A program made the translations under genes and the position numbers. Positions 22,432 through 26,006 of a DNA stretch of 27,209 bases are shown here, piece after piece. The stretch covers positions 1-27,209 of the IMG/VR virus record IMGVR_UViG_3300022602_000341. One strand, 5' to 3'. This DNA comes from a virus. The stretch's first letter is position 1. Each line of letters opens with the position of its first letter. The notes under the pieces are model-generated. The model was not told where the DNA came from and did not search any database. It was given only the letters and a program-made list of their open reading frames with translations.

Positions 22432-22710
22432 TTACTTCCCCTTAGTGGTAGTAGTGGTCGGAGTCGGGTCAACCGGGGCCGGATCAGGCGTTACCGTCGG
22501 CGCTGGGGTCTGTGCAACCGCATCACCCGGCTGCCAATCCGTCGCCAACAGGTCGGGATTGGTCGGGACCCAAGTGGTCACGCCCGTTGATGCCGTTAAC
22601 AAAATGTTGGTGCTGTCGTTCGGGTCTGCCGAGATAGCACCATCTGTCCACGATTGCCGATTCGTTGAGTGTCCCCCGCGAAGCAGGGACAAAGCCGTTT
22701 CAAATAGCAT
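22432..22710 (-). CDS. DUF2829/Tad2-like protein, candidate anti-Thoeris
   Basis: A 92-aa protein whose first 62 residues follow the DUF2829 (Tad2) pattern: 'FETALSLLRGG' helix, an R..W strand (RQSW, W21), a middle strand, then 'WVPTNPDLLATDWQPGD' (W47, PDLLATDW 52-59). DUF2829 includes Tad2, which sequesters the glycocyclic ADPR signal of Thoeris. The binding pocket cannot be verified from here: the usual 'GW' after the first strand is SW. Residues about 68-92 are a Pro/Thr-rich tail, absent from the compact family members I recall. An ideal AGGAGG site is 6 bases before the ATG, which overlaps the upstream gene. Confidence 0.7.
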   Translation of the reverse strand: MLFETALSLLRGGHSTNRQSWTDGAISADPNDSTNILLTASTGVTTWVPTNPDLLATDWQPGDAVAQTPAPTVTPDPAPVDPTPTTTTTKGK

Positions 22711-23395: not shown

Positions 23396-23548
23396 TCAAG
23401 CATACCCATCCTCCTTTCTCCGTGCGCGTCGAATCGTCCTGATTGAACACCCAAACCGCCTCGCGAACGCCTTCATGTACCCGTACGTCCGCTCCGCACC
23501 CCGGATCTCCGCAACCTGATCAGCGTTCAACCGCTTACTCTGCGCCAT
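23396..23548 (-). CDS. Small helix-turn-helix protein (50 aa)
   Basis: The frame is open to 23692, but the ATG at 23548 is chosen: GGGG stands about 5 bases upstream. The protein is almost only a DNA-binding trihelical unit: 'LNADQVAEIRGAERTYGYMKAFARRFGCSIRTIRRARRKE' has a helix, a turn and a recognition helix with the 'A..FG.S..TI.R..R' pattern of the resolvase/transposase-type HTH. It may be a small regulator. A TerS-type DNA-binding role is possible but it is short for that. It overlaps the preceding small gene by 14 bases. Confidence 0.65.
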   Translation of the reverse strand: MAQSKRLNADQVAEIRGAERTYGYMKAFARRFGCSIRTIRRARRKEDGYA

Positions 23549-23780
23549 TGGAACCCCGCGCACGGATGGCTGCGGCGCACGCCTCATACGCCTTGTTGTA
23601 GTTACGTTGAGTCTTGTCAACGGGAGCGTAATCCACCATTTCTTCACACACCCTCGCACAAGCCTCTTGCTCCTCGGCCCTTGCCCGCGCATCGACTTTC
23701 GCCATCAGCGCGTGAAGCGCGTCGTAGAACGTTTGATGCAACTCGGCAAACGCATATCTGACTGCTTCATCGCGGGTCAT
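23535..23780 (-). CDS. EREACA/IRARG small modular protein (81 aa)
   Basis: Member of a local set of related small proteins: N-terminus MTRD, a central EQEACARVCEE motif (about 37-47), and a C-terminal AAAIRARG motif. The family is common in phages of Betaproteobacteria; its role is unknown. The start ATG overlaps the preceding gene as ATGA, with the Shine-Dalgarno site (GGGGTGA) made by the previous gene's last codons. The residues between the two motifs look like a helical hairpin (VDYAPVDKTQRNYNKAYEACAAAI). Confidence 0.65.
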   Translation of the reverse strand: MTRDEAVRYAFAELHQTFYDALHALMAKVDARARAEEQEACARVCEEMVDYAPVDKTQRNYNKAYEACAAAIRARGSNGAE

Positions 23781-24397
23781 GGTTCACCCCGCGCACGGAT
23801 AGCCTCACAACACTCCGTTTCTGTCACCGCACGCAAAAACTCTGCTGTTTGAGCAGACCACGCCGCATCAAACGCCGCACCACGCGCCGCAGACCACGCC
23901 GCATCCCACGCCGCATCACGCGCCGCAGACCACGCCGCATCCCACGCCGCATCACGCGCCGCATCACGCGCCGCAGCCAACGCCGCAGACCACGCCGCAT
24001 CCCACGCCGCACCACGCGCCGCAGACCACGCCGCATCCCACGCCGCAGACCACGCCGCATCAAACGCCGCACCACGCGCCGCATCCAATTCATTTTTTGT
24101 CGCTGCGCCCAAAGCAAAACGCTCTGCGACATTGATTGCGTCATGGCTTCGTTGATCGGTTATCAGATGCTGCACTTGTCTTGCACACCACACTGCAAAC
24201 AACCGCCACTCGCGGTCATGCTCAGGCACCGTGCGACACGCCCACAAAGCGTCTTTCATTCCGTTTGATTCCACAATGACGCTAAACGGCAGCGGCTCGT
24301 CATCGGCTTCTGTTTTGCCAAGATGCTGAAGAAGTTTTTTCCAACCTTCAACACACGGATCATGTTCGCGAATTCGATTCAATGTCGTGCAGATCAT
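23777..24397 (-). CDS. Imm5-like protein with XAAZ tetrapeptide repeats and IRARG end (206 aa)
   Basis: Residues 1-105 match by eye the putative-immunity (Imm5-like) family: LNRIREH..CVEGWKKLLQHLGKTEADDEPLP, then ALWACRTV..HDREWRLFAVWCARQVQHLITDQRS and VAERFALGAATKNELDAA. From about 107 to 183 about 19 tandem tetrapeptides (D/S/R/G)AA(W/R/F) form an Ala/Trp helix. The last 20 residues end in IRARGEP. Such proteins are annotated as 'putative immunity protein', but the function is unproven. The DNA of the repeats is a tandem 12-mer and so may vary in length. ATGA overlaps join both neighbours. Confidence 0.65.
   Translation of the reverse strand: MICTTLNRIREHDPCVEGWKKLLQHLGKTEADDEPLPFSVIVESNGMKDALWACRTVPEHDREWRLFAVWCARQVQHLITDQRSHDAINVAERFALGAATKNELDAARGAAFDAAWSAAWDAAWSAARGAAWDAAWSAALAAARDAARDAAWDAAWSAARDAAWDAAWSAARGAAFDAAWSAQTAEFLRAVTETECCEAIRARGEP
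23853..24093. repeat. Tandem 12-bp coding repeats in the Imm5-like gene
   Basis: A roughly 240-bp tract of imperfect 12-base units, e.g. CACGCCGCATCC and CACGCGCCGCAG on the plus strand. It encodes the (D/S/R/G)AA(W/R/F) tetrapeptides of the minus-strand gene. Units are in frame and similar at the base level, so recombination or slippage could add or remove units without frameshift. Confidence 0.8.
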
Positions 24398-24612
24398 GGT
24401 TTCACCCCCCGCGCACGGATCCGAGCCGCAAATATCTCACCGCCCTTAACCGCTGACTTTTGTTCACACAATCGCGCACACGCCTCGCGCTCGGCGGCGA
24501 CTGAGGCATCCCATGCAATCCGCGTGACGCGCTCGGAGAATTCTTCAAAATCTTCATTTGGAAGCGGCCTAATTCCACTTCCGACTTCGTACCACCATTT
24601 GTCGTGCGTCAT
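24394..24612 (-). CDS. EREACA/IRARG small modular protein (72 aa)
   Basis: Same pattern as its neighbours: start MTHD, then AAEREACARLCEQ (about 39-51), then AARIRARG near the C-terminus. The N-terminal half is Trp- and acidic-rich (KWWYEVGSGIRPLPNEDFEEFSERV). Function unknown. It starts with an ATGA overlap, and GAGGTGA six bases before the ATG is formed by the previous gene's C-terminal RARGE codons. It overlaps the Imm5-like gene by 4 bases. Confidence 0.65.
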   Translation of the reverse strand: MTHDKWWYEVGSGIRPLPNEDFEEFSERVTRIAWDASVAAEREACARLCEQKSAVKGGEIFAARIRARGVKP

Positions 24613-24851
24613 TTCTCACCTCGCGCACGGATGGCCATGGCGTTGCTCATGAGTACTTTGTACATCAGGGAATCCTTAACGCAAGCCTTAGCGTTTTCTT
24701 CTAACACCTTCGCACACGCCTCGCGCTCAACCGCAGCCACCATCTCCACAAACCGCATCAGGGATACCGCCATCGGCGCGGTATCGTAGATCGGAGTGCT
24801 CTGCCACAGCCCAGACGCTACCGCCATGTTGTAGTAGTCATCGCGGGTCAT
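24609..24851 (-). CDS. EREACA/IRARG small modular protein (80 aa)
   Basis: Third member of the set: starts MTRDDYYNMAV, has AVEREACAKVLEE (about 41-53) and ends AMAIRARGEK. The frame is open to a GTG one codon upstream (24854). The ATG is preferred because its first bases, ATGACCCGCGATGA, match the start of the 81-aa relative. Function unknown. It overlaps the stop of a possible 14-aa micro-ORF by one base (TGATG). Confidence 0.65.
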   Translation of the reverse strand: MTRDDYYNMAVASGLWQSTPIYDTAPMAVSLMRFVEMVAAVEREACAKVLEENAKACVKDSLMYKVLMSNAMAIRARGEK

Positions 24852-24895
24852 CACAGCATCTTCCGCGCAGCCAACTGCTCCTTTGTGGTCATCAT
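24851..24895 (-). CDS. Possible 14-aa micro-ORF (MMTTKEQLAARKML)
   Basis: A short frame from the ATG overlapping the HNH stop (AAATGATG) to a TGATG junction with the next gene. AAGGGG precedes it by about 5 bases. It bridges the gap between the two genes, so it may couple their translation. It could be a remnant of another modular gene (its end, AARKML, is not IRARG) or chance. Confidence 0.3.
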   Translation of the reverse strand: MMTTKEQLAARKML

Positions 24896-25263
24896 TTACA
24901 CCCCTTCTTCAAGTTACACCTCGGACACAACAACTGCAGATTCCCCACCACGTTCAACCCACCCCGCGCTATCGGCACGATGTGGTCCACGTGATACCCG
25001 GTCACCGCCAGCGACCGTAAACACTTCCGGCACTTCCCGCCCTGCGCCAACGCCAGGTTCTGCACGTCCCGAGCCGTGAAACTCCCCCGCGTCTTTGTCC
25101 TGCGTTTGTGAGCCGCCGCCGCTCGTTCCGGCTTTTCGCATCCACGACACCTCGGTCTCAGCACGGGCTTGCCACCACGCATCCGAACGCGAAAACGTCC
25201 CCGAGGAAGCATTTTTTTGCATCCACAACACTCCGACAACAAACCTTCGTGACGGCGTTTCAT
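24892..25263 (-). CDS. HNH endonuclease
   Basis: A 123-aa protein. A first zinc ribbon is made by C12/C15 and C39/C42. The HNH domain holds C78-x2-C81, the YHVDHIVPIARGG motif (His 91, Asp 93, His 94), a GNLQLLC segment (Asn 108) and C113-x2-C116-N-L-K-K. Phage HNH proteins encoded upstream of terminases can work with the terminase in DNA packaging; this position, three kilobases upstream, agrees but does not prove it. No Shine-Dalgarno site precedes the ATG; a TGGTATATC -10 ends 6 bases upstream, suggesting a leaderless mRNA. Confidence 0.85.
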   Translation of the reverse strand: MKRRHEGLLSECCGCKKMLPRGRFRVRMRGGKPVLRPRCRGCEKPERAAAAHKRRTKTRGSFTARDVQNLALAQGGKCRKCLRSLAVTGYHVDHIVPIARGGLNVVGNLQLLCPRCNLKKGCK

Positions 25264-25269
25264 TGTCTA

Positions 25270-25297
25270 GATATACCACGTTATTGCTAAGTTGTAA
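25270..25297 (-). promoter_or_regulatory. Leftward extended -10 promoter for HNH module
   Basis: On the minus strand an extended -10, TGGTATATC (the TATATC is at 25270-25275), has a weak -35, TTACAA (25292-25297), 16 bases upstream. The expected start point falls at or next to the ATG at 25263. The gene has no ribosome site, which agrees with a leaderless message. Confidence 0.45.
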
Positions 25298-25313
25298 GCG
25301 TTTTATTGCCAAG
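25281..25313. repeat. Paired TTATTGCYAAG sites, 22-bp phased
   Basis: TTATTGCTAAG (25281-25291) and TTATTGCCAAG (25303-25313) are 10/11 identical and start 22 bp apart (two helical turns). One lies in the -10/-35 spacer and the other upstream of the -35 of the HNH promoter. This is the arrangement of a repressor operator pair. Confidence 0.5.
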
Positions 25314-25328
25314 GTGCACGTTTTTTTA

Positions 25329-25351
25329 GGGTGGGGGGCAAGAAGGGGGGG
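25329..25351 (+). other. G-quadruplex-capable G-rich tract
   Basis: Plus-strand G runs of 3, 6 and 7 (25329-25331, 25333-25338, 25345-25351) allow four G3 tracts with short loops, so an intramolecular quadruplex could form. This is seen in the sequence; any role (regulation, replication block) is unknown. Confidence 0.45.
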
Positions 25352-25383
25352 ACCCCTACAGTAACTGCTGCGACCCATCGCCT

Positions 25384-25404
25384 CGGCGCGCCGGGGTCGC
25401 GCCG
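25384..25404. repeat. GC-rich inverted repeat
   Basis: CGGCGCG (25384-25390) and CGCGCCG (25398-25404) pair across a 7-base CCGGGGT loop. No T-tract follows on either strand, so it is probably a structured or protein-binding site, not an intrinsic terminator. Confidence 0.45.
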
Positions 25405-25429
25405 GTCAAAAACGCCGTGGATACAAACA

Positions 25430-25479
25430 CTTGCGCTTGTTTGTTGACAAGCGACGCAAGAATCAAGCGCAAGCGCTTG
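25430..25479. repeat. CAAGCG/CGCTTG dyad cluster
   Basis: Within 50 bases there is an inverted pair CTTGCGCTTG (25430-25439) / CAAGCGCAAG (25464-25473), a perfect 10-bp palindrome CAAGCGCTTG (25470-25479) and a further CAAGCG at 25448-25453. Another CGCTTGA lies near 25581. This looks like a multi-site binding region. Confidence 0.5.
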
Positions 25480-25520
25480 AAAACAAACAACAAACAAACG
25501 GCCCATGACCCACGTGACCC

Positions 25521-25561
25521 CACGTTTAGAAAACCTAAACATCACGTTTAGAAAACCTAAA
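25521..25561. repeat. Paired 19-bp dyad repeats, 22-bp phased
   Basis: CACGTTTAGAAAACCTAAA occurs exactly at 25521-25539 and 25543-25561. Each copy has TTTAG/CTAAA arms around an AAAAC loop; in the first copy the arms extend to GTTTAG/CTAAAC. The copies start 22 bp apart, so the sites face the same side of the helix. Typical of a dimeric repressor or replication-initiator site. Confidence 0.6.
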
Positions 25562-25675
25562 AAGTATTGAACCTGTAACGCGCTTGAAGGGGAGACAAGC
25601 ACCGTCAAAGGGGGGTCACAAGCCCCCTCAAAAGCCCTTTCCTTTTTGCGCTGCACAACGCGCCATTGCTTAGGC

Positions 25676-25936
25676 AGGGAGTCGCTTTTACCATCCCTCG
25701 ACCATCCCTACGGTGTTAACCGATTGTTTTTGCTTGTTTTTTTGTGCCTTCAGGGAACAAAAAAGCCTAGGGAGTCGCTTTTCAAACCAAATATATAACC
25801 AACTATATAACTATATGTTTTATATAGTGTTTATCACATATATTTACTCTATTAATTCCCTAGTACCCTAAAAGTCTAATATCCCTTATAAATCAAGCAC
25901 TTGCGATCCTAGGGAACGTCTAGGGAACTTCAGGGA
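25676..25936. repeat. AGGGA/TCCCT pentamer array around an AT-rich core
   Basis: Direct AGGGA at 25676, 25752, 25769, 25911, 25922 and 25932; inverted TCCCT at 25694, 25705, 25857 and 25882. The three at 25911-25936 are phased by 11 and 10 bp, the pair at 25694/25705 by 11 bp (ACCATCCCT). GGGAGTCGCTTTT is perfectly repeated at 25677 and 25770. The core between (25783-25860) is almost pure A+T, with an ACTATAT/ATATAGT dyad at 25810-25828. Confidence 0.55.
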
Positions 25937-26006
25937 GTCGAGTGGGAAATGCCAAACTATTTCACGTTTATTTTCAGTTACTTACGCTCAATGCGAAAAA
26001 AATAAC

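Follow-up and report, generated by a model that had tools for sequence, protein, structure and literature searches.

Organisation of the array

The window analysed here, a 27,209-base uncultured viral contig taken at its full length, gives PHROGs matches to terminase, portal, major head and tail proteins. It carries an array of four small genes, A to D, bordered on one side by an HNH endonuclease gene and on the other by the small genes E to I, a fixed series that precedes the terminase (Table 1). An earlier note on this DNA had described a 14-mer, ATCCGTGCGCG(G/A)GG, at the end of each of the four genes. This was borne out: the 14-mer is present exactly four times in the window, at the positions listed in Table 1 and always on the minus strand, and a reversed-pattern control gave 0 matches. 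When three mismatches were allowed there were 10 matches against 7.3 expected, which is no excess, so it is the exactness of the 14-mer and its placement at gene ends that count. The open reading frames terminate in IRARGEK, IRARGVKP, IRARGEP and IRARGSNGAE, and all four junctions read ATCCGTGCGCGRGG.

The A-B, B-C and C-D junctions are ATGA overlaps, in agreement with the earlier count of three, whereas at D-E the start of gene E lies inside the end of gene D without an ATGA. The short gap before each next start was also confirmed, but not its range of 5-9 bases, since the distance from the last codon of the motif to the next ATG is 5, 8, 5 and 4 nt; all four junctions have Arg-Gly codons compatible with a Shine-Dalgarno (SD) sequence and a start 4-8 nt downstream. 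The two starts that had been said to share a sequence are those of genes A and D (ATGACCCGCGATGA), the start of gene A being most likely ATG 24851. A second shared block, E(R/Q)EACA(K/R)(V/L), is found upstream of the variable part of genes A, B and D and is absent from the earlier note.

Elsewhere in the window, a small gene at 22432-22710 (minus strand) has a Tad2-like (Thoeris anti-defence 2-like) Pfam match of 34.9 bits against a cut-off of 25, which suggests an anti-defence neighbourhood near the array. The intergenic sequence at 25263-26000, upstream of the HNH gene, contains a perfect 19-bp direct repeat (25521 and 25543), a 14-bp repeat (25676 and 25769) and nested inverted repeats around 25424-25490, and is a possible regulatory or origin region. 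An Rfam search of the window gave no match.

Table 1. Genes, junctions and shared blocks of the array and its flanks (window coordinates)
Feature	Position	Strand	Description
HNH endonuclease gene	24892..25263	(-)	Constant upstream flank of array in close relatives
Gene A	24609..24851	(-)	N-module 'MTRDDYYNMAVASG...', EREACA block, middle module 'LEENAKACVKDSLMYKVLMSNAMA', IRARG, tail EK
Gene B	24394..24612	(-)	N-module 'MTHDKWWYEV...', EREACA block, middle module M1 'QKSAVKGGEIFAAR', IRARG, tail VKP
Gene C	23777..24397	(-)	phrog_18326 relative, variable Ala-rich repeat; C-terminus ECCEAIRARG, tail EP; without EREACA block
Gene D	23535..23780	(-)	N-module 'MTRDEAVRYAFAELHQTF...', EQEACA block, middle module M3 'EMVDYAPVDKTQRNYNKAYEACAAA', IRARG, tail SNGAE
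Gene E	23396..23548	(-)	50-aa protein, weak helix-turn-helix matches; fixed downstream neighbour, start within end of D
14-mer, junction A-B	24619..24632	(-)	IRARG codons; putative SD of gene B
14-mer, junction B-C	24407..24420	(-)	Putative SD of gene C
14-mer, junction C-D	23787..23800	(-)	Putative SD of gene D
14-mer, junction D-E	23554..23567	(-)	Weaker putative SD of gene E
EREACA block, gene A	24711..24728	(-)	Second module switch point
EREACA block, gene B	24475..24492	(-)	Second module switch point
EQEACA block, gene D	23655..23672	(-)	Second module switch point

A family of small phage proteins

Relatives were collected in two scans. One searched viral contigs for AAIRARG encoded by any codons, and many of the C-terminal cases also proved to have EREACA upstream. 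The other selected on EREACA only, and hence was blind to the IRARG codons; it returned 131 distinct ORFs, and in 122 of them the 25 C-terminal residues include an IRxR-type motif. A total of 208 family members was assembled, with widely divergent N-parts and middle parts. Most consist of an N-module, an EREACAKVCE block, a variable middle module and AxAIRARG, after which about two residues lead into an ATGA overlap. If an EREACA block and, close to the C-terminus, a subsequent IRxR(G/S) are taken as the defining features, genes A, B and D belong to the family (D with EQEACA), whereas gene C has only the IRARG end.

For 28 aligned members there was no fitting model in Pfam, PHROGs or NCBIfam, where matches were isolated and weak, and no match in the PDB. 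The AlphaFold2 model of gene D, built from the same 28-member alignment, is a confident helical hairpin (helices 3-47 and 56-78, mean pLDDT 93.7) in which IRARG closes the second helix. A fold search against viral models matched only unnamed phage proteins (best E 0.008) and no function was assigned. Among deposited phages, tblastn with gene D gave no match, and a search of the same type with another family member gave four records. The genome of phage DSL-LC05 (OR003940.1, deposited as complete; our locus L509) encodes a member at 2501-2719 that is annotated as a hypothetical protein, ends in IRARSNT and has AGGAG ahead of the next ATG. In genome contigs the EREACA pattern was found in 7 stretches only, all in metagenome-assembled genomes of mixed phyla, and family modules are also present in large contigs that have no recognisable relative of the window's terminase. 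The strings IRARG and EREACA gave irrelevant matches only in the literature, a weak negative that covers open papers. This is a family of small phage proteins that is abundant, without a database entry and undescribed.

The end of gene C looks acquired, because IRxR is present at only 9 of the 83 ends of ORFs homologous to it. Gene C also contains a 12-bp coding tandem repeat of about 19 copies (23858-24086; DAAWSAARGAAW), which is Ala-rich and differs in length among relatives. One homologue that lacks IRARG (L391) ends in ...SSARGEK with GCGCGGGGGGAGAAATGA; this end is unrelated in other respects but has the same SD tail.

Codon choice and the predicted ribosome site

The earlier note had proposed that the conserved C-terminus doubles as the SD site of the next gene, and both codon restriction and predicted pairing support such a role. 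Non-redundant members in which the fourth motif residue is Arg number 169. Of their codons for this last Arg, 168 end in a purine (AGG, AGA, CGG or CGA), compared with 101 for the first Arg, which lies only two codons earlier (p = 6e-23). Background Arg codons in the same contigs are CGC or CGT in 51% of cases, and for copies of AAIRARG separated from a stop by more than 20 aa these two codons specify the last Arg in 48 of 75. When another residue replaces the final Gly of the motif, the sequence in most cases remains SD-like; of 15 members with Ser there, 13 have AGGAGT or AGGAGC, so that the SD is retained though the amino acid has changed.

The position of the following start is similarly restricted. 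Across the 208 members the first ATG after the last motif codon stands at exactly +5 in 127 and at +8 in 30, and a stop two codons past the motif is combined with a start at +5 in 107 of the 169. The mean predicted energy of pairing between the SD and the 16S end is -8.3 kcal/mol, against -5.0 +/- 0.15 under synonymous recoding. In the window, the predicted duplexes with the 16S 3' end for genes B, C and D have energies of -11.8, -15.3 and -10.9 kcal/mol, and that at D-E is weaker at -6.2 kcal/mol, as computed with a start coordinate 3 nt off. In the members that have no start in the next 12 nt, the last Arg codon is likewise purine-ended (8 of 8), and inheritance through shared ancestry may therefore explain part of the codon restriction. 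The putative SD role of the IRARG codons nevertheless has strong sequence support, and we infer that ribosomes would use this SD in vivo, probably through translational coupling or reinitiation.

Exchange of modules at IRARG

To list the gene content between identical junctions in related phages had been suggested in the earlier note, and relatives with the same flanks do hold different modules, with breakpoints at the 14-mer. Arrays between these flanks contain four such genes in the window, two in each of the relatives L133 and L151, one in L361 and none in L357. In L133 the N-module of gene D is followed by the middle module of gene B and the SNGAE tail; L151 has the body of gene B with the SNGAE tail; and L018 has the body of gene D with the VKP tail of gene B, ahead of gene C. 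At the joints of these three, identity jumps at the 14-mer from 28-32% to 99-100%. Gene B of the window and gene D of L018 are 28% identical upstream, 14/14 at the 14-mer and 99% downstream, and gene D of the window and gene B of L151 are 28%, 14/14 and 100% identical over the same intervals. Gene A and L381 present the opposite arrangement (100% upstream, 29% downstream).

The contig L355 is 99.5% identical to the window over 3070 nt, with a terminase identity of 100%. Its 48 leading bases align with the end of gene B (M1) and the remainder with the SNGAE tail of gene D and gene E, the two alignments overlapping at exactly 35-48, which is the 14-mer. This arrangement is what would result if genes C and D had been deleted between direct copies of the 14-mer. 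This junction is near the contig end, and the same B/SNGAE joint occurs well inside L151. Tails travel with the gene that follows: VKP or ENP is found before C, EK before B and SNGAE before E, the last in all three relatives found (L133, L151 and L355), a search with gene E having given known relatives only. At 388-415 of L151, ahead of the first array gene, is a mini-ORF, MTTEEGEKP, with the usual SD tail, perhaps a remnant of a deleted module.

These mosaic joints support the proposal that modules may be added, lost or shuffled by recombination at the 14-mer while the site of the next gene is kept. With regard to the term 'cassette system', module exchange stands, but a dedicated recombinase should not be implied: none was found in a limited search, and no integrase match was obtained among about 19 window ORFs scanned. 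The 14-mer as a shared module site likewise holds within this phage group, while elsewhere I-R-A is spelled with other codons. Different codons for the motif had been named in advance as evidence against shuffling at the 14-mer, and between phages this is what is observed. We therefore reject the 14-mer as a universal site, the invariant being the protein motif with an SD-compatible Arg-Gly rather than one DNA site. As a word it is not diagnostic of the family either, as most exact matches in other viral contigs fall outside it. Within contigs, I-R-A codons agree at 0.76 compared with 0.32 expected from codon usage, favouring exchange or duplication in local pools via short homology.

A second switch point at EREACA

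L381 has the middle module of gene A under a different N-module, with identity across the 75 nt that precede the 14-mer, and the M1 cluster of gene B is paired with 8 N-module clusters. More generally, 16 of 19 multi-member N-clusters occur with several middle clusters, and the reverse is true of 30 of 33. The ends of HSPs of at least 100 nt fall at IRARG in 76 cases, at EREACA in 104 and inside a middle module in 0, the remaining ends being in gene C, adjacent genes or N-modules. Classified by which of their blocks are similar and which are not, 150 pairs were mosaic and 10 collinear; the pairs are non-independent, and most of the data come from uncultured contigs. As EREACA forms a second switch point, it appears that parts of proteins are exchanged as well as whole genes.

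Comparison with known systems

Three systems come closest to the present array: the lambda nin chain, lambdoid boundary sequences and the start-associated sequences of mycobacteriophages. The 'chain of interlinked genes' of the lambda nin region (Kroger and Hobom 1982, as described in PMC8022706) is a set of ATGA-linked accessory genes. It resembles the present array in its packed small accessory genes, its ATGA overlaps (here at three of four junctions) and a gene content that varies between related phages; however, the sections of PMC8022706 drawn on here describe no shared coding motif doubling as a ribosome site, and family members have no nin match in PHROGs or Pfam. Lambdoid boundary or linker sequences (Susskind and Botstein 1978; Clark et al. 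2001, cited in PMC3029335) are short, conserved and proposed recombination guides. As in the part of PMC3029335 that deals with them, related sequence here gives way to unrelated sequence at a short shared border. Unlike the boundaries outlined in that part, the border here forms both the coding end of a gene and the putative SD of the gene after it, it is repeated several times per array, and a second border lies inside genes.

Start-Associated Sequences of Cluster K mycobacteriophages are a fixed 13-mer, GGGATAGGAGCCC, at the ribosome-site position (PMC3203893). They too are short, recur, and have an AGGAG core immediately ahead of the starts of genes from different families, but in the present array a conserved protein terminus forms the element, its codons being free except at Arg-Gly, and the 13-mer itself is not present before the starts at the four window junctions. 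An SD within the 3' end of an upstream gene is known to aid translation of the downstream gene by termination-reinitiation at overlapping genes (Huber et al. 2019, PMC6728339). The location of the SD is the same as here, although in those gene pairs it is a general property of unrelated genes and not of one recurring protein module. Integron gene cassettes are also interchangeable small genes in a row; in contrast to these, there is no recombination site conserved across phages, I-R-A codons varying freely between them, and what the genes share is a coding end. In the open literature no description was found of a conserved protein terminus that both bears an SD and serves as a module border, which is a weak negative.

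Discussion

Taken from codon choice and alignment breakpoints, it is very probable that the locus represents a modular array in which the IRARG end of each protein would provide the SD of the next gene and modules would be swapped at IRARG and EREACA. The Arg-Gly codons are kept as AGG, AGA, CGG or CGA plus GGN, so that the coding end could act as both SD and spacer. Two copies, within or between genomes, could then recombine, and upstream content would be swapped, added or deleted while the downstream gene would lose neither its start, nor the ribosome site and spacer ahead of it, nor the tail residues leading into that start. Exchange at this adapter would be tolerated because the end of each protein is also the ribosome site of its neighbour. 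The EREACA homology block would allow the middle module to be swapped separately from the N-module. Short stretches of homology may guide the recombination, with general recombinases of the phage or the host carrying it out, and the proteins could be dispensable accessory helical hairpins. The D-E junction, lacking ATGA and having a weak predicted SD, counts against this scheme.

It could be argued that IRARG is conserved simply for the fold and that the genes show the usual ATGA packing, in which case an SD before an overlapping start must necessarily lie in the upstream gene. Conservation of Ile, the first Arg and Ala with free codon choice does indicate a protein-level constraint, the motif ends helix 2 in the gene D model, and overlapping gene pairs commonly have an SD motif within the upstream gene (PMC6728339). 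Such an account is improbable, however, as it leaves unexplained the one-sided codon restriction within a single motif, the last-residue changes that keep AGGAG, the near-fixed start at +5 or +8, and the breakpoints and downstream-linked tails. For the recombination step itself, a serious if somewhat unlikely alternative is random illegitimate joining followed by selection, with joints arising anywhere and the survivors keeping both frame and the next gene's ribosome site. Illegitimate recombination is a standard proposal for phage mosaicism (PMC3029335), no recombinase was found in the limited search, 14 nt alone is short for homologous recombination, and the element differs between phages, hence is no universal site. 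Random joining does not readily account for the within-contig agreement of I-R-A codons, for the lack of any long-alignment end inside middle modules, or for L355, which matches a simple deletion between direct 14-mer copies; but as a breakpoint within a conserved motif cannot be placed more finely, homology-guided exchange is not separable from random joining plus selection.

Chimeric assembly of metagenomes might also produce apparent module swaps, given that most of the sequences are uncultured contigs and the L355 junction is 35-48 nt from a contig end. Several joints, among them that between gene D of the window and gene B of L151, share the 14-mer alone. Assembler k-mers are normally longer than 14 nt, which disfavours chimerism at such joints. 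Moreover, the joint of the B body with SNGAE recurs well inside L151, the combinations N_D+M1+ENP and D+VKP are each found in more than one contig, and the genome of DSL-LC05, deposited as complete, has a member with AGGAG before the next start, so that we regard chimeras as a highly improbable source of the pattern. Exchange driven by conversion with a homing endonuclease was suggested by the HNH gene that lies directly before the array in the window and in close relatives. No HNH motif was found with a strict pattern in 117 family-selected loci (983 kb), and module exchange is already seen in relatives without HNH; HNH shows no general association with the family and this explanation, which has very little probability, was rejected.

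Whether the modular array represents a widespread scheme, in which a C-terminal motif would be kept partly as a portable adapter for ribosome site and start and proteins would be rebuilt combinatorially at two blocks without a dedicated recombinase, is in our judgement evenly balanced. Such a scheme would offer a DNA-level reason for the free exchange of some phage accessory genes, since the module itself would carry the adapter that keeps its neighbour translated. The old linker idea of phage mosaicism would also become directly testable, with joints that are predictable to the base.
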